A DNA stretch of 64,000 nt, taken from positions 248,001 through 312,000 of the forward strand of contig NZ_VMHK01000001.1 of the NCBI RefSeq assembly GCF_007559275.1, given 5' to 3'. Positions 47,196-57,032 of the stretch are shown here, in pieces. Position 1 is the first letter of the stretch. Every line of letters starts with the position of its first letter. The DNA is from Bifidobacterium apousia. Lineage in GTDB: Bacteria; Actinomycetota; Actinomycetes; Actinomycetales; Bifidobacteriaceae. The notes under the pieces were generated by a model. The model saw nothing but the letters and a program-made list of their open reading frames with translations, ran no database searches and was not told the origin of the DNA. The position numbers and the translations under genes were made by a program.

Positions 47196-50100
47196 TCATG
47201 CTGCCATTTTGTTCTCCCGCCGATGGAATCTGGCAGCCATGGCGGCTCCCATGCCCAGCAGGCCAGCTATGATCAGCAGAATCACGCCAGTGCTGCCGGT
47301 CAGGGGCAGGACGGCCAACTGGTCGTAGGTGTAGGGCAGTGTCTGATCCTGCTGGTCCACGCCTACCAGGCTCCAATGAATGACAGTATCCACCTGCCCG
47401 GGCCTGTAGCGTGGGGTGACTGCCACCCAGGCGCCATTCTGGTACTGCGGGGTTCCCTCTGCAGACAGTCCGGCGAAGGTGACCGTTTTGACCAGGCTTC
47501 TGATCACGACAGCCTGTGGCGTCTTGCTGTTCAGGTCCGGTCCGGACTGATCGTCACCCAGCTGGCCGGCATCGTCGGCACCCCATCCGTAGGCCAGGCC
47601 GTCGGAGCCTAGGGCCAGTGAGCTCGGGTCGCCCGTGCTGACGGCTGTGAAGCTGAAATCCTCAGACACGTTCCTGGGTTTGGCCAAGAATGCGGGATCT
47701 GTGCCTTCTGCGGCATTGCTCCAGGTCAGGATCCGCCCGTCGGAGCCCAGGGCGGAGGATGCTCCGGTGCCAGCACTGATCTGTGTAATGGCAAACCCCG
47801 TCGGCAGTCCGTCGGGAAGGGTCAATAGGGCAGGGGTTTTCTTGTTCTCGCCCTTGACCTGTCCCCAGGTCCAGATGTGCCCTTGGGAATCCAGGGCCAG
47901 AGCTTGGTGGTCTCCAGCGCTGATGGCACTCATCTCGCCCGTCAGTCCTTGAACGGCAGACGGTGTGGGGTTGGCGCCGTCAGAGCTCACTGGCAGGGAG
48001 GGGTCGCCCAGCTGGCCGGAATCATTGGTGCCCCAGGCGTAGACCTGTCCATCCACGGTCATGGCCAGCGAATACCGGCTTCCGGCACTGATTGCCGTTG
48101 TGGTTGTCGGGATTCCGGTCACCATGGCAGGGCTGGTTCGCCCGTCTGGCGAGACGGTATCGCCGCCGGCATTATCCAGGCCCAGCTGCCCGTATTGGTT
48201 GGCACCCCAGGACCAGACTCGTCCCTGGGAATCCAGAGCCAAGGCATGTCCACCACCGGCGCTGATGGACCGGATCTTGTCAGGCAGACCAGGTACCAGA
48301 TGGGGCCGGCCCTGGGCATTTAGGGTGGAGTCGCCCAGCTGGCCAATGTCGTTGTTGCCCCAAGCGTAGGCCTTTCCATCGGAACCTAGAGCAAGGCCAT
48401 AATCCCGGCCCGCGCTGACCTGGGTGAAGACGAAGTTGGCTTCCGCTTTCTCGGGCATGTCCACTCGGACCGGCATGGTGCTGGCGCTGCCCTTGGCGAT
48501 GTTCGCGTTGCCCAGCTGGCTGCTGTTGTTCTTGCCCCAGGCGTAGGCCTTCCCGTCGGACCCTAAGGCCAGGGACCAGTGGGAACCGGCACTGACCTGG
48601 CTGAAGCGAATGCCCCGCAGGGCTGGCGGCGTCAGGGTGACCTTCGTTCCGCCCATCTCGGTTCCATGGCTCGGGGTCATGCTCCAGTTCTGATTCTCAG
48701 GGCTCCAGTGGGCCTTGAGCGTCATGGAGCTGGTGACTGGCTTGGAGAAGTCGTAGGCGGTCTTGCCTAGGAACCAGCCGTCGAAGCGGTAGCCGGCCTT
48801 GGTCGGATCAGCGCTGGGGCGGACTGCCCGCTCTCCCGCTTCCAGACTCTGGCTGGGTGGTGCCGGTGAATCGCTCTCTGACTGGAAGGTTACGGTCACC
48901 CCGCGCGCCAGGTAGCGGAAGGGCAGGTGGACCTGGGTCTGTTCTTGATCGTTCAAGGTCCATGTCAGGGCCACATCCACCAGCCCTGGGGCGTGCGGCG
49001 GGGTGCTAGCCGTCCAGGTCCCGTTCTTTTGCGCCTGCATTCCGGTGGTGATATCCGTAGTGTCGAATTTGATTCCGGTCAGTTTCGCCGGCCAGGGGAA
49101 GGCGACCGCAGAGGGCCGGTTATGGGCGCCATCGCCGCTGGTACCCTGACCCAGCTGACCCTCGTCGTCACGTCCCCAGCTATAGGTCTGGCCGTCGTCG
49201 CCGATAGCCAGGTTAAAATCTTCGCCAGCGCTGATGCTGATCCAGTGCCGACCGGCAAGCTTTGGATCTTCCAAGCGTTCCGGAGTGGTCTGGGGGCTGT
49301 CTGCTGCAGAGGTCTTGCCGTCGCCCATTTGTCCGTAGCTGTTGTCGCCCCAGGCCCAGATATTGCCATCTGAATCCAGAGCTATGGCGTGATTGGAACC
49401 GTAATGGTGGCCACCAGCGATGGCGGTAATTCTGGTCCCTTGGGGGAAGCTGACCTGAACGGGGTCTTTGAACACCTCGGTCTTGCTGGCGCTTGACCCG
49501 TTGCCGATCTGGCCGTTTTCGTTCATTCCCCAGGTCCAGACTTTTCCCTGGTCATCCAGGGCCAGGGTGTTCTCAAAGCCGTCTGCGATGGCCACCACAT
49601 GGACCTTGTCAAGGCCGTGGATCTTGATCGGCGTATAGTTTCCTACGACCGCGCCGGCGGATGGATCCAACTGGTGGTAAAGGTTGCTTCCCCATGACCA
49701 TACCGTGCCAGCGTCGTCCAGAGCTGTTGAGTAGTTCATTCCTGCCTGCACAGCTATGATTTTGTGGTTCTTATCGAATCCCTGGATGAGGCTGGGCGTG
49801 GAGTCGCATATGCCGTCGCACTTATGGCGGCCGGTTTCTCCTTCACTGCAGGTTCCCCAGCCATAGACGTTGCCATCCGATCCTATGGCCAGGGTGTGAT
49901 TGTGACTACCGGTGACGGCCTTGTAGGTGAATCCGGCCGGCACTCCTTCAGGCAGCATCACCTTGACCAGGTGTTCCGAATAGTTATGCATGCCGCTGTC
50001 AGCCACATTCGGGTTGCCCAAGGTCTTCAGATAGTTGTACCCCCAGGACCAGAGGGTGCCATGGTTGTCCAGGGCCATGCTGAAGAACCGGCCAGCGTTG

Positions 50101-50951
50101 ACACTGACAAACCGAAAATCCTTGTCATTGCGGGCTTCTTCGGGCCGGGGCACCCTTATGGGCGTCGACCTGTTGACAATAGTGCCATCACCTAGCTGAC
50201 CAGCACGGTTAAAGCCCCAGGCGTAGACGTTGCCATCCGATCCCAAAGCCAGCGAGAACCGGGTGCCTGCACTAACCTGGCTGAAACGGACACCGGAGGG
50301 TGGAGGCGGGGTAAGGGTCACTCCGGTGCCTCCTGATTCTGGTCCCTCTTGCGGTTGCATGGTCCAGGTCTGGTCGGCGCGGGCCCACTTGGCTTTCAGG
50401 GTTAGGTTCGCATGCACAGGTGCGGAGAAGTCATAGGCTACCTTGCCTGCGAACCATCCTTCGAGAACGAATCCTCGGCGGGTGGGTTCAGGACTGGGGC
50501 GCGCAACCTGGGCGCCATCAGCCACAGTCGAGGTGGTCGGAGTTGCAGACTGCATGTTGTAGTCGAAAGTGACTGTGTGGCTGGTGGCATTCGATGGGGA
50601 AGAGGCGGTTGAGGTCGGTTCCGAGGAACCTGCTGTGCCGGGCGAAGGCGAGGACGGAGAGGTGGGCGATGTGCTGGCGGCAGGCGCTGATTGTCCTGTT
50701 GCCGCTGCACCAGAGCCACTGGACAGGGTGGGCATGCCCGACGGCGATGATGAGGGACCGGGGGAAACCGAAGGAATCTGTCCGGGAGTATTGGTTCCAG
50801 TGCCAATTGCTCCAGTTCCCTGAGTCGCGACTGCGGTCTCATTGGACTCCGGCGCTGCTTGACCGAATTGCAGACCAAGCATGCTGCAGACAACCAAGAC
50901 GCAGCAGAGGCTGATGAGCAGTGTGACGCGACGACTACGTACCATCTTCAT
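47196..50951 (-). CDS. Sortase-anchored surface protein: two RCC1 propellers nested in TIG-like domains
   Basis: A 1251-residue secreted protein. It has a signal peptide (residues about 1-32), a Ser/Pro/Thr-rich stalk, then two units. Each unit is an InlB-type B-repeat (about 70 residues, ending GWF-GKVAYDFSAPVHANLTLKAKW-like), a strand GGTGVTLTPP or GGTKVTLTPP, seven RCC1-type repeats, and a closing block (LTGIKFD...TPPHAPGLVDVALTW). I count seven repeats in each: Y/W-[AST]-WG...GQLG. In the second unit repeats 5 and 6 are worn. The C-terminus has LPLTG (47295-47309), a hydrophobic helix and a basic tail, as for sortase A substrates. ATG 50951 has GGGAGG upstream. Likely an adhesin or glycan-binding protein; ligand unknown. 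Confidence 0.85.
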   Translation of the reverse strand: MKMVRSRRVTLLISLCCVLVVCSMLGLQFGQAAPESNETAVATQGTGAIGTGTNTPGQIPSVSPGPSSSPSGMPTLSSGSGAAATGQSAPAASTSPTSPSSPSPGTAGSSEPTSTASSPSNATSHTVTFDYNMQSATPTTSTVADGAQVARPSPEPTRRGFVLEGWFAGKVAYDFSAPVHANLTLKAKWARADQTWTMQPQEGPESGGTGVTLTPPPPSGVRFSQVSAGTRFSLALGSDGNVYAWGFNRAGQLGDGTIVNRSTPIRVPRPEEARNDKDFRFVSVNAGRFFSMALDNHGTLWSWGYNYLKTLGNPNVADSGMHNYSEHLVKVMLPEGVPAGFTYKAVTGSHNHTLAIGSDGNVYGWGTCSEGETGRHKCDGICDSTPSLIQGFDKNHKIIAVQAGMNYSTALDDAGTVWSWGSNLYHQLDPSAGAVVGNYTPIKIHGLDKVHVVAIADGFENTLALDDQGKVWTWGMNENGQIGNGSSASKTEVFKDPVQVSFPQGTRITAIAGGHHYGSNHAIALDSDGNIWAWGDNSYGQMGDGKTSAADSPQTTPERLEDPKLAGRHWISISAGEDFNLAIGDDGQTYSWGRDDEGQLGQGTSGDGAHNRPSAVAFPWPAKLTGIKFDTTDITTGMQAQKNGTWTASTPPHAPGLVDVALTWTLNDQEQTQVHLPFRYLARGVTVTFQSESDSPAPPSQSLEAGERAVRPSADPTKAGYRFDGWFLGKTAYDFSKPVTSSMTLKAHWSPENQNWSMTPSHGTEMGGTKVTLTPPALRGIRFSQVSAGSHWSLALGSDGKAYAWGKNNSSQLGNANIAKGSASTMPVRVDMPEKAEANFVFTQVSAGRDYGLALGSDGKAYAWGNNDIGQLGDSTLNAQGRPHLVPGLPDKIRSISAGGGHALALDSQGRVWSWGANQYGQLGLDNAGGDTVSPDGRTSPAMVTGIPTTTTAISAGSRYSLAMTVDGQVYAWGTNDSGQLGDPSLPVSSDGANPTPSAVQGLTGEMSAISAGDHQALALDSQGHIWTWGQVKGENKKTPALLTLPDGLPTGFAITQISAGTGASSALGSDGRILTWSNAAEGTDPAFLAKPRNVSEDFSFTAVSTGDPSSLALGSDGLAYGWGADDAGQLGDDQSGPDLNSKTPQAVVIRSLVKTVTFAGLSAEGTPQYQNGAWVAVTPRYRPGQVDTVIHWSLVGVDQQDQTLPYTYDQLAVLPLTGSTGVILLIIAGLLGMGAAMAARFHRRENKMAA

Positions 50952-51051
50952 GTGAAGGCATCCTCCCCCATGCGTCCGGCACTTGTATAGGCAGGTGTAG
51001 ACGAACGAGACTCTCTCCCCAAGAGTTAATAATCCCATCCACTACAATAAC

Positions 51052-51539: not shown

Positions 51540-54500
51540 TCAGCGAGTGCTGGCTAGAGTCTGGCGGGCCATTTCCAAGTAATGCTGTCTTGCTGCCAGG
51601 ACAGTCACCGTTATGAAAAGTCCGACAAGCAGCACGATGAGCAGACCCTGGCTACCGGTCAGGGGCAGAATATCCCTGTAGGTAAAGGGCAGATTCTCGG
51701 TTTGAGGGTTGCCTTGGCCCACATTCCAGGTGATGTTGACTGTTGTCCGGCCCGCCTTGAAGGCTGGGGTATAGAAGGTCCAGGTATTCCATGATCCCCA
51801 TGCGTCGGCTGTGCCGCTCCGGGTCAGTTCAAGAACTGCGGCAGTATCCGGATCCGTGCCGACTGTGACCGAGCTGATGGTCAATTGCGGCGGGCAGACC
51901 AAGGTGGCTGCCTTGACGGAAGTGTTGTCCAAATTGGTTCCTAGCTGTCTGCTGCTGTTGTCGCCCCAGCCATAGGCCATGTCGTTGGAGTCGATGACCA
52001 GGACTTGGCGCTCGCCTGCACTGATCTGTGTGGTGCTGCCGTCTTTGCTCACCAGAACGGGGGATGCGCTGATGGATCCCGTGATGGAGACATTGCCCAG
52101 GGCGTTTTGACCGTTGTTTCCCCAGGTGTATATCCTCCCTTTGTTGTCGATTCCTGCGCAGAACCATCCTCCGGCGCTGATCTCGGTGGGTTCGAATCCA
52201 TCGCTGCCTCCGTCGGGATCGGCCACCAGGGTTGGTATTGCGGCATCATTGGTGTCTCCGGTGCCCAGTCGCCCGTCGGTATTCGCACCCCAGGCGTAGG
52301 CTTTGCCGTCTCTGCCAATGGCCAGGGAGTGCGAGCCTCCCGCGCTGACCTGGGTGGCGAAGAATCCTATTGATCCGTCCTCGTACTGCACGGGTGACGA
52401 TACCGACACAGGAGTGGCCTGTGAGGCTTTGGCATTGTTGCCCAGTCTGCCGCTGGCGCCGTATCCCCATGCGTAGGTTTGCCCGCTTATACCGATGATC
52501 AGAGAGTGCTGATATCCAGCGCTGACCTGTCTGGCCTGGAATCCAGGACTGGTGGCGCTTGCGTTGACGGCTACAGGAGCAGGGGCGTTCCCGGTCGTGT
52601 TCCCGTCGCCCACCTGTCCGCCGTTGCTCCTGTCCCCCCAGGCATAGGCCTGATGATCCTTACCGACGGCCAGGGAATGATAGCCGCCTGCGCTTACCTG
52701 GGTGTAGGCGAAGTCAGTACCTGCACCGGAGGGCTTCTTCACTTGGACGGGTATCGTATCGGTGCCGCCTGCGGTGCCCTTGCCGAGCTGTCCCCTGCTG
52801 TTGTCTCCCCAGGCGTAGGCGTTGCCGTCACTGCCGAGGGCCAACGAGAACCCATATCCTGCGCTGACTTGGATGTAGGAGAAGTTGTCCTTGTCGCCAA
52901 TTCCCTCGGGCTTCTTCACTTGGACGGGCGTCTTGCTGCCGTCCTTGCTGCCGTTGCCGAGTTGGCCCGTGCTGTTGTTTCCCCAGGCGTAGGCATTCCC
53001 GTCGCTGCCGACGGCCAGGGTATGGTTTTTGCCTGTACTGACCTGGGCGAAGCGGATGCCACGCTGCGAGGGCGGAGTGATGGTGACCTGGTATCCGCCA
53101 GTGGACGGACTGACGGTTGGGTCGACGGTCATTGGAGCCGAAGGCGTCCAGTGCGCGACCAGGGTCAACGGGTCCGTGACCGGCTTGCCGAAATCGTAGG
53201 CCACATTGGAGCTGCCGTCAGCCGCTTTGACGAACCAACCGTCGAACAGGAAGCCTGTCTTGGTCAGGGTCTGTCGCGGTACCAATTCGCCTTCCATGAT
53301 GTCCTTGCTTGTCCATGCAGCTCCAGTACCTCCCTGGGGGTCAAGCGTTATGCGCTTCTCGGTCGGATCGAAGGTGTAGTCGAACTGCTGTGTCTGCTTT
53401 GAGTCTCCGGAGTCGTCGGCGATAGTCCATGTGATGGTGAAACTGGATGGGCCGTATGGGTACGCGGGCGTGACGAAGGTCCAATCCCGGTTTTCATCCC
53501 AGGTGTCTTTGCCTGTCTGGGTCAGATTCGTGGCTGGCTCGGTGCTGCTGGCCATGGTGCCGAAGACGACCTTGGCCAGGGTGATCTGCGGCGGCTGTGT
53601 GGCGCCGGGTCTTAATGCCGATACGCTTTGTCCCAGCTGGTTGTAGTAGTTGTATCCCCAGGTGTAGAGCAATCCGTCAGACCCGATGGCCGTCTGGTGA
53701 TGGCCGGAGGTGGCTACCGCGCAGGCCTTCACCGATTGGGCCAGAGTGATGGCTTTCGGATTGGTCTGCCATGCATCACTATTGCCGTTGCCTAGCTGGC
53801 CGTAACCCTGATTGCCCCAGGTGTAGATTCTTCCGTTGGTGTCTATGGCTTCGGATCCATCGTCGCCTGCACTGATGGCGGTGATGTTGACAGTCTCGTC
53901 TCCGAAGCTGATCTTAGTGGATCCTTTCGTGCTGACATTGGTATCGGTAGTGGAGCCGATGGCGGTGCCGGAACCCCATCCATAGAGGTCATGATCCGTA
54001 TCCAGCGCCAGCACGTGCTGGTAGCCCGCGCTGATGGCGATATAGAACCGGGCATCAGGCTGTCCGGTGTCCAGGTCTTGGACGCGTGTCGGCGTCGGAT
54101 TGTCACCAAGGGCGCCGTTGCCGAGCTGTCCCTTGCTGTTCTCGCCCCAGGCCCAGGCGTGGCCTTGACTGTCCAGGGCCGTGCCTGTGGTGAACCCTGC
54201 GCTGATGGCGGTGATGTTGGACAGCGCCGTGACCTTGGTGGGGGAGGGATGGCTGCCACCGTCTGAGCTGCCGTTGCCGAGCTGTCCCTTGCCGTTGTTG
54301 CCCCAGGTGTAGACTGTACCGTCCGAGGCCAGGGCCATGGCGTATGCCCGTCCCGCGCTGATGGCGGTGATTTTGGCATTGCCGGTCTGTGCCTTTACTG
54401 GTTCTGTGGAATAGTTTCCGGTAGTGCCGTTGCCGAGCTGTCCCTTGCCATTGCTGCCCCAGGTATAGACGGTGCCGTCCGAGGCCAAGGCCATGGAATA

Positions 54501-57032
54501 AGCGTCGCCGGCGCTGACGGCTATGAAGATCTTTCCCCTTATGGCATCATTTTCGGTGATCCGCACCGGCGTTGTTGCCGTGCCTGAGTCTTTGCTGTTT
54601 CCCAGTCCGCCGCTGGCCTGATTCCCCCAGGCGTAGACGTGACCGTCAGAACCCACAGCCAGGGTGTGGTAGCGCCCGCTGCTGGCCTGGGCAAATCTCA
54701 CTGCTCTGGGCTTGGGGGGAGTCAGGGTGATTTTGGAGCCCCCGGTGTCGTCGCCATGGAGGGCATCCGAGGTTTTCCATTTCATGTCTGACGAAGACCA
54801 ATGCGCTTTCAGATTCAGTGGTTCGGTGACCGGGCTGCTGAAGTCGTAGGCCACATTGGAGCTGCCGTCGGCTTCCTTGATGAACCAGCCGTCGAACAGG
54901 AAGCCTGCCTTGGTGACGGTGGGAGGTGAGGCCTGCTTGCCTGCGATGACGGACTGGTCTGAGACAGATGAACCCCCGTCCGAATCAAAGGTGACCTTCT
55001 TAGCAGTGGGCGTGAAGGTATAGTTGGCGATGCTCTGCCCCTGCTGTGCTGCGCCGCCAAGGGACCATTGACCATCGTTGATCCTGATCTCGGTGGTTCC
55101 GTAGGTGTGGTGGGGGGTCGCGATCGTCCATGGGGTATTGGCGCTCCAGGTGTCGTCGCCTGCGGAGGTTCGGCTGATTGGGCTGTTGCTGTCGGTCTTG
55201 GCTACATCCGTCCTGCCGAAGGTTACCTTGGCCAGATCTATCTGGGGTGGGCTGATCGCTGCAGGCTTGGGCTGCGAGCCGCTTTGAGGTCCCTTGCTGC
55301 CCTGTCCCAGCTTGCCGCTTTTCGCTTCTCCCCAGCTGTAGGGGAGCCCATCCGAGCCGATGGCCAGACTGTGCCGGCAGACATCGAACTCGCTGACCGT
55401 GACACCTGTCAGGCTCACCTTGGTCATAGTTGATTTGGGGCTTGTGGTGCCGTCGCCCAGCTGGCCGCTGGAATTGCTGCCGAACATGTACAGGCTGCCC
55501 GCAGAATCGACCACCGCAGAGGAGTAGTCCCCGGCGCTCACTGAAACAGGCGTCGCCGCTCCTGAGGGCAGACTTACCAGGCTGGGATAGAAGGAGTGGA
55601 CGCTGTCGGCATTGGCGTCATTGCCCTTGGTCAGGGGATAACCCCAGTAGTACACCTTGCCTGTATTGCTCAGTGCAAGGACGTGCAGGTACCCTGCATC
55701 GATGTCGGTGTAGACTGTGCTGTCTGGGTTGCCGGTCGAGTCGCCGTAAATGCGCGATGGAGTGTAGACATTGGAACCACTGCTGGTGCCGTCCATGGTG
55801 CCGATGCTGAGCTGGCCGCCCTGGTTGCGTCCCCAGGCGTAGGCATGTCCTTGGCTGTCCAGCGCCGTTTGAAAATCGTATCCGGCGCTGATGGTGGTGA
55901 AGGTGACGCCGGATGAAGAGACCGCTGCTGGTGAAGCGTTGACGTTGACACCCGTGTGCCCGTTGCCGAGCTGGCCGTATTCGTTGTCTCCCCATGTGTA
56001 GATCGTCCCGCTCGAGGACAGGGCCATGGCATGCCAGTATCCGGCGCTGATGGCGGTGATGGTGGCGTTGAGATTCGCCTTTACCGGTACTGAAGAATTC
56101 GTGGTGGATCCGTTGCCGAGTTCGCCGCGACTGTTGTCGCCCCAGGTGTAGACGGTGCCGTCCGAGGCTAGGGCCATGGAGAATGTGGTTCCCGCGCTGA
56201 CGGATACGAAGGTCTTTCCCTTGATAGCGTCATTTTCGGTGATCCGAACCGGCGTGTTTCTGTTGATTGTGGTGTCGTCGCCGAGCTCACCCCTGCTGTT
56301 GTCTCCCCAGGCGTAGACGTGGCCGTCCGAGCCTACGGCCAGGGTGTGATCGTGTCCGGCGCTGACCTGTGCAAATCTCACTCCTCTGGGCTTGGGGGGA
56401 GTCAGGGTGATTGCCGAACCCCCGGTGTCGCCACCGCTGACGTCGGCTGTCGTCCACTGGGCGTCGTTGACCGACGACCAACGGGCCGTCAGCGACTGCG
56501 TGCTGGTGACCGGCTTGCCGAAGTCATAGGCCACATCGGAGCCTTTGAGGAACCATCCATCAAACAGGTAGCCAGATTTGTTGACGGCAGGTGGGGATGC
56601 CAGATGACCTGAGGTCACTGTCTGGCTCAGGGCCGGTGAGCCGGACGCCAGCGAGCCCCCGTCAGGCTCGAAAGTGAGGGTATATGAGGATGAATCCCTG
56701 GTCTGGGGTGACTTGTCTCTCGGTGAGCTGTCCCTGAACGGTCTGTCCGCCCTTTTGCTGTTGAATGGTTGGACGGCCTTGAATGGTGAAGGATTGTTAC
56801 TGGCCAACGGTGACGGTGAGGCGGTCGGGGCAGCGGCTCGAGCCTGTGCCTCACTGCCTGCCCGGAGCAATGGACTTGCGCTGCTGTCAGGATTGGGCGA
56901 GGGCGATTCTGTGGCAGATGCAGGTGTCATGTCGCCGGTGGTTGCGTATGCGCCTGTTGATGCTCCGATCAGCGCCAGCCCAATCATGGCTGTCAACGTC
57001 ACCAGTCTGCGGATGCCATGAGCATTCCCCAT
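51540..57032 (-). CDS. Very large sortase-anchored surface protein: three RCC1 propellers nested in TIG-like domains
   Basis: An 1830-residue secreted protein. After a signal peptide and a short low-complexity region it has three units. Each has an InlB-type B-repeat (GYLFDGWFLKGSDVAYDFGKPVT in the first), a strand ending in TLTPP or TITPP, seven RCC1 repeats with the core YAWGDNSRGELG or a variant, and a closing block LAKVTFG...ATPHHTYGTTEIRI. The repeat counts are 7, 7 and 7. Approximate DNA spans of the propellers are 56370-55290, 54710-53620 and 53065-51900. LPLTG lies at 51654-51668, then a helix and a short basic tail. ATG 57032 has GGGGAGGAAG upstream; the frame is open 16 codons further. 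Units 1 and 2 share long identical DNA stretches (see the repeats). A paralogue is at 47196-50951. Confidence 0.86.
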   Translation of the reverse strand: MGNAHGIRRLVTLTAMIGLALIGASTGAYATTGDMTPASATESPSPNPDSSASPLLRAGSEAQARAAAPTASPSPLASNNPSPFKAVQPFNSKRADRPFRDSSPRDKSPQTRDSSSYTLTFEPDGGSLASGSPALSQTVTSGHLASPPAVNKSGYLFDGWFLKGSDVAYDFGKPVTSTQSLTARWSSVNDAQWTTADVSGGDTGGSAITLTPPKPRGVRFAQVSAGHDHTLAVGSDGHVYAWGDNSRGELGDDTTINRNTPVRITENDAIKGKTFVSVSAGTTFSMALASDGTVYTWGDNSRGELGNGSTTNSSVPVKANLNATITAISAGYWHAMALSSSGTIYTWGDNEYGQLGNGHTGVNVNASPAAVSSSGVTFTTISAGYDFQTALDSQGHAYAWGRNQGGQLSIGTMDGTSSGSNVYTPSRIYGDSTGNPDSTVYTDIDAGYLHVLALSNTGKVYYWGYPLTKGNDANADSVHSFYPSLVSLPSGAATPVSVSAGDYSSAVVDSAGSLYMFGSNSSGQLGDGTTSPKSTMTKVSLTGVTVSEFDVCRHSLAIGSDGLPYSWGEAKSGKLGQGSKGPQSGSQPKPAAISPPQIDLAKVTFGRTDVAKTDSNSPISRTSAGDDTWSANTPWTIATPHHTYGTTEIRINDGQWSLGGAAQQGQSIANYTFTPTAKKVTFDSDGGSSVSDQSVIAGKQASPPTVTKAGFLFDGWFIKEADGSSNVAYDFSSPVTEPLNLKAHWSSSDMKWKTSDALHGDDTGGSKITLTPPKPRAVRFAQASSGRYHTLAVGSDGHVYAWGNQASGGLGNSKDSGTATTPVRITENDAIRGKIFIAVSAGDAYSMALASDGTVYTWGSNGKGQLGNGTTGNYSTEPVKAQTGNAKITAISAGRAYAMALASDGTVYTWGNNGKGQLGNGSSDGGSHPSPTKVTALSNITAISAGFTTGTALDSQGHAWAWGENSKGQLGNGALGDNPTPTRVQDLDTGQPDARFYIAISAGYQHVLALDTDHDLYGWGSGTAIGSTTDTNVSTKGSTKISFGDETVNITAISAGDDGSEAIDTNGRIYTWGNQGYGQLGNGNSDAWQTNPKAITLAQSVKACAVATSGHHQTAIGSDGLLYTWGYNYYNQLGQSVSALRPGATQPPQITLAKVVFGTMASSTEPATNLTQTGKDTWDENRDWTFVTPAYPYGPSSFTITWTIADDSGDSKQTQQFDYTFDPTEKRITLDPQGGTGAAWTSKDIMEGELVPRQTLTKTGFLFDGWFVKAADGSSNVAYDFGKPVTDPLTLVAHWTPSAPMTVDPTVSPSTGGYQVTITPPSQRGIRFAQVSTGKNHTLAVGSDGNAYAWGNNSTGQLGNGSKDGSKTPVQVKKPEGIGDKDNFSYIQVSAGYGFSLALGSDGNAYAWGDNSRGQLGKGTAGGTDTIPVQVKKPSGAGTDFAYTQVSAGGYHSLAVGKDHQAYAWGDRSNGGQVGDGNTTGNAPAPVAVNASATSPGFQARQVSAGYQHSLIIGISGQTYAWGYGASGRLGNNAKASQATPVSVSSPVQYEDGSIGFFATQVSAGGSHSLAIGRDGKAYAWGANTDGRLGTGDTNDAAIPTLVADPDGGSDGFEPTEISAGGWFCAGIDNKGRIYTWGNNGQNALGNVSITGSISASPVLVSKDGSTTQISAGERQVLVIDSNDMAYGWGDNSSRQLGTNLDNTSVKAATLVCPPQLTISSVTVGTDPDTAAVLELTRSGTADAWGSWNTWTFYTPAFKAGRTTVNITWNVGQGNPQTENLPFTYRDILPLTGSQGLLIVLLVGLFITVTVLAARQHYLEMARQTLASTR
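53194..53219. repeat. Internal direct repeat, unit 3 copy
   Basis: 26 bp identical to 54844-54869, 1650 bp away, encoding the B-repeat segment before the third propeller. Confidence 0.8.
54704..54732. repeat. Internal direct repeat, unit 2 copy
   Basis: 29 bp identical to 56384-56412, exactly 1680 bp (560 codons) away, at the junction of the TIG-like strand and the propeller. Confidence 0.85.
54844..54869. repeat. Internal direct repeat, unit 2 copy of the B-repeat segment
   Basis: 26 bp identical to 53194-53219; encodes the GSSNVAYDF region of the second B-repeat. Confidence 0.8.
56384..56412. repeat. Internal direct repeat, unit 1 copy
   Basis: 29 bp identical to 54704-54732; the flanks are also similar, so units 1 and 2 are a recent tandem duplication or have been homogenised. 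Confidence 0.85.

Follow-up and report, generated by a model that had tools for sequence, protein, structure and literature searches.

A three-unit surface protein and its two-unit neighbour

The window, the whole 64,000-nucleotide stretch of Bifidobacterium apousia DNA analyzed here, carries two adjacent genes for large RCC1 proteins on its minus strand. The first, P0001, starts at an ATG at position 57032 and consists of three units of 548-563 residues, each running from an InlB-type B-repeat (PF09479) through a strand ending in GG..TLTPP and seven RCC1 blades to a VTFG...TP..G...I.W...FTY block. The first-pass annotation had described this layout as a B-repeat and a P..G..GG..TLTPP strand before each propeller and a VTFG...TP..G...W block after it, and we found it in 3/3 units. 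P0002 adjoins P0001 directly downstream and provides two more units of the same design. Pfam marks 20 RCC1 stretches (PF00415, 2e-182) and three PF09479 B-repeats (3.8e-28) in P0001. The TIG parts in the following list are labelled according to the assignment argued for below.

51543..57032, minus: P0001, three-unit surface protein of the proposed propeller-in-TIG design, 1830 aa (ORF, translation, Pfam)
51540-51542, minus: P0001 stop codon
56943..57032, minus: P0001 signal peptide (read from sequence: n-region, hydrophobic core, AYA site)
56478..56690, minus: P0001 unit 1 InlB-type B-repeat, PF09479 (Pfam)
56388..56477, minus: P0001 unit 1 TIG N-terminal part, strands A, A', B (independent N-flank HMM, iE 2e-9)
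55245..56387, minus: P0001 unit 1 seven-bladed RCC1 propeller (Pfam, reading, blade HMM)
55011..55244, minus: P0001 unit 1 TIG C-terminal part, strands C to G (independent C-flank HMM, iE 1.3e-8)
54798..55001, minus: P0001 unit 2 B-repeat (Pfam)
54708..54797, minus: P0001 unit 2 TIG N-terminal part (N-flank HMM, iE 1.3e-9)
53589..54707, minus: P0001 unit 2 seven-bladed RCC1 propeller (Pfam, reading, blade HMM)
53367..53588, minus: P0001 unit 2 TIG C-terminal part (C-flank HMM, iE 9.4e-7)
53148..53357, minus: P0001 unit 3 B-repeat (Pfam, AF2 model)
53064..53147, minus: P0001 unit 3 TIG N-terminal part (N-flank HMM, iE 1.8e-8; AF2 strands 77-79, 82-84, 90-94)
51888..53063, minus: P0001 unit 3 seven-bladed RCC1 propeller (AF2, structural alignment to UVR8, Z 53.7)
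51672..51887, minus: P0001 unit 3 TIG C-terminal part (C-flank HMM, iE 2.4e-9; AF2 strands 492-499, 511-514, 525-529, 536-546, 552-561)
51543..51671, minus: P0001 LPLTG cell-wall sorting signal, transmembrane stretch and basic tail (sequence reading)
47199..51038, minus: P0002, adjacent two-unit paralogue with LPLTG anchor, 1280 aa (ORF reading, Pfam, blade HMM)
50298..50384, minus: P0002 unit 1 TIG N-terminal part (N-flank HMM, iE 3.3e-13)
49086..50297, minus: P0002 unit 1 seven-bladed propeller (reading, blade HMM)
48906..49085, minus: P0002 unit 1 TIG C-terminal part (C-flank HMM, iE 3.3e-21)
48618..48704, minus: P0002 unit 2 TIG N-terminal part (N-flank HMM, iE 3.3e-17)
47496..48617, minus: P0002 unit 2 seven-bladed propeller (reading, blade HMM)
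47319..47495, minus: P0002 unit 2 TIG C-terminal part (C-flank HMM, iE 1.7e-14)

The signal peptide of P0001 reads MGNAHGIRRLVTLTAMIGLALIGASTGAYA. Its C-terminus has the LPLTG motif, hydrophobic stretch and basic tail of the wall anchor that had been annotated. The LPLTG tails of P0001 and P0002 and the signal peptide of P0001 are read from the sequence, as in LPXTG sortase substrates; PF00746 scores above its cut-off in P0002 only, not in P0001.

Each propeller has seven blades

The first-pass annotation had counted three blocks of exactly seven RCC1 repeats in P0001, and a different count would have spoken against its proposal. Reading of the translation and a blade HMM both return 7, 7 and 7, so every unit has the predicted count. 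Structure prediction of one unit, the check put forward with that annotation, gave a confident AlphaFold2 (AF2) model of P0001 unit 3 (pLDDT 92.5, pTM 0.90), whose residues 95-489 superpose on the seven-bladed propeller UVR8 (Z 53.7, rmsd 2.2, 366 residues). Other structural matches of the model include RCC1 (Z about 42) and BLIP-II (Z 27.8), and RCC1 propellers fill the list of matches in a Foldseek search. The Pfam score, the blade counts and the superposition all identify these domains as seven-bladed RCC1 propellers. The fold is shared with UVR8, human RCC1, the HERC2 RLDs and BLIP-II; unlike these, the P0001 propellers are surface-anchored, arranged in tandem and, on our reading, nested in another domain.

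The two flanks match complementary halves of one IPT/TIG domain

The pieces on either side of each propeller had been proposed to be the first and last parts of a single IPT/TIG domain. We made 30 joined flanks by cutting the propeller out of family units, and 23 of these match Pfam TIG (best 4.9e-5). Searched against the PDB, the joined-flank profile finds the plexin-A1 IPT first (2.7e-6, profile positions 9-91), with further matches to plexin-A2, CAMTA1, COE1/3 and the MET IPTs; this search, also suggested at the outset, thus recovers IPT/TIG over the full length. Against 17 TIG domains whose source arrays belong to other families in the order (17/17 confirmed as PF01833), hhalign gives one alignment that passes through the join (98.7%, E 4.5e-16, columns 13-97). 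The gap at the join is three residues long and falls where canonical TIG has 'GTGF', which places the propeller insertion site in the loop between strands B and C. Across the genome, the N-flank matches TIG model positions of about 6-26 and the C-flank about 30-84. These data support the view that the two flanks, with nothing between them, make up one IPT/TIG domain, and that the propeller sits between its strands B and C.

Flank HMMs trained without window sequences recovered 5/5 N-flanks and 5/5 C-flanks of P0001 and P0002, with exactly three of each in P0001 (iE 1e-9 to 2e-8 for N-flanks, 9e-7 to 2e-9 for C-flanks); the best score that they gave on reversed sequences was 0.065. Native P0001 and P0002 score below the Pfam TIG gathering threshold (20.9 bits), as does joined P0002 unit 2, while some relatives exceed it once joined (23.5 bits). 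The TIG assignment is therefore made at the level of the family, on the family profile. A control using swapped-order HMMs on TIG arrays did not discriminate, since the C+N order arises naturally in tandem arrays.

Joined in this way, the flanks align over the whole of IPT/TIG domains such as those of plexin-A1, the MET IPT repeats, CAMTA1 and actinobacterial TIG arrays (PF01833). The Bifidobacterium domain differs from an ordinary one in that about 370-400 inserted residues separate its strands B and C. In plexin and MET, the propeller precedes the IPTs in series.

The N-flank depends on the C-flank in the structure model

To look at the relation between the flanks, we modelled residues 1-490 of P0001 unit 3, with the C-flank removed and the same alignment rows. 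The confidence of N-flank residues 81-90 dropped from 94 to 77 and that of residues 71-80 from 92 to 87; strand 82-84 was lost and strand 90-94 shortened to 92-94. Confidence in the B-repeat and the propeller was unchanged. This behaviour of the models suggests that the N-flank needs the C-flank to be ordered. From AF2 confidence and homology, we infer that the strands of the two flanks pack together.

Naturally empty TIG copies

We surveyed 230 ORFs from the group, not all of which carry a unit. N- and C-flanks alternate strictly, bounding 342 propellers, of which 270 have exactly seven detected blades; most of the others come first in proteins of one subgroup and have degenerate blades. The survey also yielded three continuous TIG copies that lack a propeller (L150, L153 and L154), each from a different related genome. 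Units in L153 run loaded, empty, loaded, loaded, which puts its empty copy between loaded neighbours. Some seemingly full-length TIG matches at propeller ends (e.g. L113, L109) proved to be chance extensions into the last blade and were not counted as empty copies. A tree built from the short TIG sequences scatters the empty copies, with low support. Copies that do not group would be expected from separate losses, and the tree, weak as its support is, is suggestive of such an origin.

Taken together, the joined-flank matches, the empty copies and the C-flank deletion support the split-domain proposal, and taken alone, the nesting of the propeller inside the TIG domain is very probable.

A large paralogous family

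About 23 genes beyond P0001 and P0002 have the same design, the genome holding 25 such genes in all (26 ORFs, as one gene is split by a frameshift). Together they comprise 51 units and 90.8 kb, or 4.4% of the 2.06 Mb genome. Among the 14 closest paralogues in the genome, conservation is 59% in the propeller, 72% in the B-repeat, 70% in the TIG C-part and 84% in the anchor tail. The nearest named relatives are Bifidobacterium choladohabitans, B. asteroides, B. mizhiense, B. mellis and B. sp. 7101.

Propellers as putative heads on an Ig-like stalk

We propose that P0001 is a bee-gut Bifidobacterium RCC1 surface protein whose propellers sit in TIG B-C loops as diversifying heads on an Ig-like stalk, and put the probability of this reading at about 0.8. 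The stalk would be made up of two to four [B-repeat - TIG] repeats, with the sortase motif attaching it to the wall, and the propellers would be side heads grafted into the TIG loops. As the two ends of a propeller lie close together, it can fit such a loop without breaking the TIG domain. A pulling force would then come in through strand A of the TIG and go out through strand G, and the propeller would not carry it. On this inferred geometry, the propellers would be held off the stalk as pendant recognition surfaces that diversify among the roughly 25 paralogues per genome, with the surface of the bee gut, material from pollen or other microbes as putative binding targets.

That the propellers are binding heads is probable, though less so than the nesting itself. 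Their divergence, in a set of 25 genes and 51 units, fits a diversifying set of putative binding proteins. RCC1 propellers elsewhere bind proteins, as in RCC1-Ran and BLIP-II; the latter, a secreted beta-lactamase-binding protein and RCC1 fold neighbour, is among the structural matches of the unit 3 model, which we count in favour of a binding role. The propellers might alternatively be nested as proposed and yet serve as bulky protease-resistant spacers or decoys that vary by repeat drift and recombination. Two observations speak for such a role: their divergence exceeds that of the scaffold only modestly, and the first propeller is often degenerate, with 3-5 blades detected. We consider it less likely than a binding role, given the large expansion of the family, the retention of closed seven-bladed propellers and the protein-binding precedents just mentioned.

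A serial arrangement, with B-repeat, linker strand, propeller and an incomplete Ig-like domain placed one after another and the N-flank serving just as linker or as an edge strand within the B-repeat, would agree with Pfam, which marks just B-repeats and RCC1 in P0001 and P0002, and with published accounts that have these two in series. It is nevertheless very improbable: the N-flank covers TIG positions 6-26 and the C-flank what remains of the domain, contiguous propeller-free TIG copies exist, and the order of the N-flank in AF2 depends on the C-flank. A single-unit relative (L151, G130:C1) has the TIG N-strand without a preceding B-repeat, its B-repeat following the unit, which indicates that the N-strand belongs to the propeller unit and not to the B-repeat. 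In another genus, L148 (G038:C3) has propeller-in-TIG units, the first TIG of which also lacks a B-repeat before it.

Coevolution in 338 units bears on which flanks pair. T22-T27c and V24-W23c rank high, as expected if strand B adjoins strand E. In matched sets, own-unit pairing puts 39 N-C pairs into its top 100, vs. 23 when C(n) is paired with N(n+1). Both lie below the 51% expected by area, so the preference for the own unit is suggestive and favours same-unit pairing only modestly. That the C-flank of one unit completes a TIG with the N-flank of the next, the B-repeats being the inserts, is the least probable reading of all: tandem units do bring C(n) and N(n+1) near each other in the sequence, but the coevolution signal is stronger within units, the empty copies join N and C of one unit, and both halves would be orphaned in single-unit L151 and in the single modelled unit, whose model is nonetheless confident.

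Relation to known systems

A comparable arrangement is found in the integrin beta hybrid domain, an Ig-like carrier at the cell surface with an I-like domain inserted in a loop. P0001 would share the insertion in an Ig-like loop; the folds of the inserts are unrelated, and the allosteric signalling of integrins is not in evidence for P0001. Across the phylum, none of the roughly 24 loci with RCC1 proteins that were read had TIG-nested propellers, most having the propeller in line or alone.

The family itself has been described. Honeybee Bifidobacterium LPxTG proteins have a Listeria-Bacteroides repeat upstream of each RCC1 domain, with RCC1 domains averaging 7 repeats, 2-4 of them per protein and 7-24 genes per genome, and one three-domain protein is common to all Bifido-1 strains (Bottacini 2012, PMC3447821; Ellegaard 2015, PMC4449606). 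The first of these lists, for B. asteroides PRL2011, 19 proteins with RCC1 and PF09479 and assigns them no function (PMC3447821). P0001 and P0002 belong to this family by its published features: PF09479 before each RCC1 domain of about 7 repeats, 2-4 domains, LPxTG and multiple copies (PMC4449606). A split TIG, empty copies or a mechanism do not appear in the accessible text of the two accounts (PMC3447821, PMC4449606), and literature searches on propellers carried within TIG or Ig domains returned nothing relevant. The initial claim of an undescribed architecture thus holds in part: the tandem, multicopy B-repeat/RCC1/LPxTG design was published in 2012 and 2015 and is not new, while the split TIG seems undescribed. 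As far as those sources extend, what is new is apparently the nesting, the existence of empty copies and what the design implies for mechanics, inside a known protein family.

The analysis provides a defined domain unit for this large bee-gut bifidobacterial surface family. Constructs can accordingly be cut as B-repeat plus whole TIG with nested propeller, avoiding a cut through the TIG, and what the proteins bind becomes a directly testable question, with the natural empty TIG copies as ready-made controls. A display principle is also suggested, in which the propeller hangs from an Ig domain that bears the load.

A possible second case

Other Bifidobacteriaceae have SdrD-type proteins in which an unnamed domain, distinct from TIG, is interrupted by RCC1 propellers. 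L147 (G082:C36) has propellers in two loops of this domain; in L149 (G002:C19), G044, G055 and G154, loop 1 is closed up or empty, and in L149 and its relatives the second loop alone is filled. We tentatively suggest, at somewhat below even odds, that Ig-like or beta-sandwich stalk domains repeatedly serve Bifidobacteriaceae as sockets, with RCC1 propellers plugged into their loops or unplugged from them, in TIG and independently in the SdrD-type domain. If true, such a display system would be evolvable, as interchangeable heads would alter binding and leave the load-bearing stalk unchanged; structural confirmation would mean that propellers have been plugged into beta-domain loops more than once in this bacterial family.

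Variation among the paralogues

LPLTG is present in only five ORFs of the family in this genome. Paralogues L009-L020 (C7/C8/C9/C11/C12/C14) mostly end in LPxAG motifs (LPKAG, LPRAG, LPQAG, LPHAG, LPNAG, LPMAG), which could reflect a separate sortase specificity. One paralogue (L011:4483-8098; G000:C7, about 354.5-358.1 kb) is frameshifted into ORFs of 932 and 321 aa; a pseudogene, phase variation or a sequencing error are possible explanations. In LPxAG-type paralogues such as L010:4430-7972, the first propeller is degenerate (3-5 blades detected, about 300 aa) and the second canonical.
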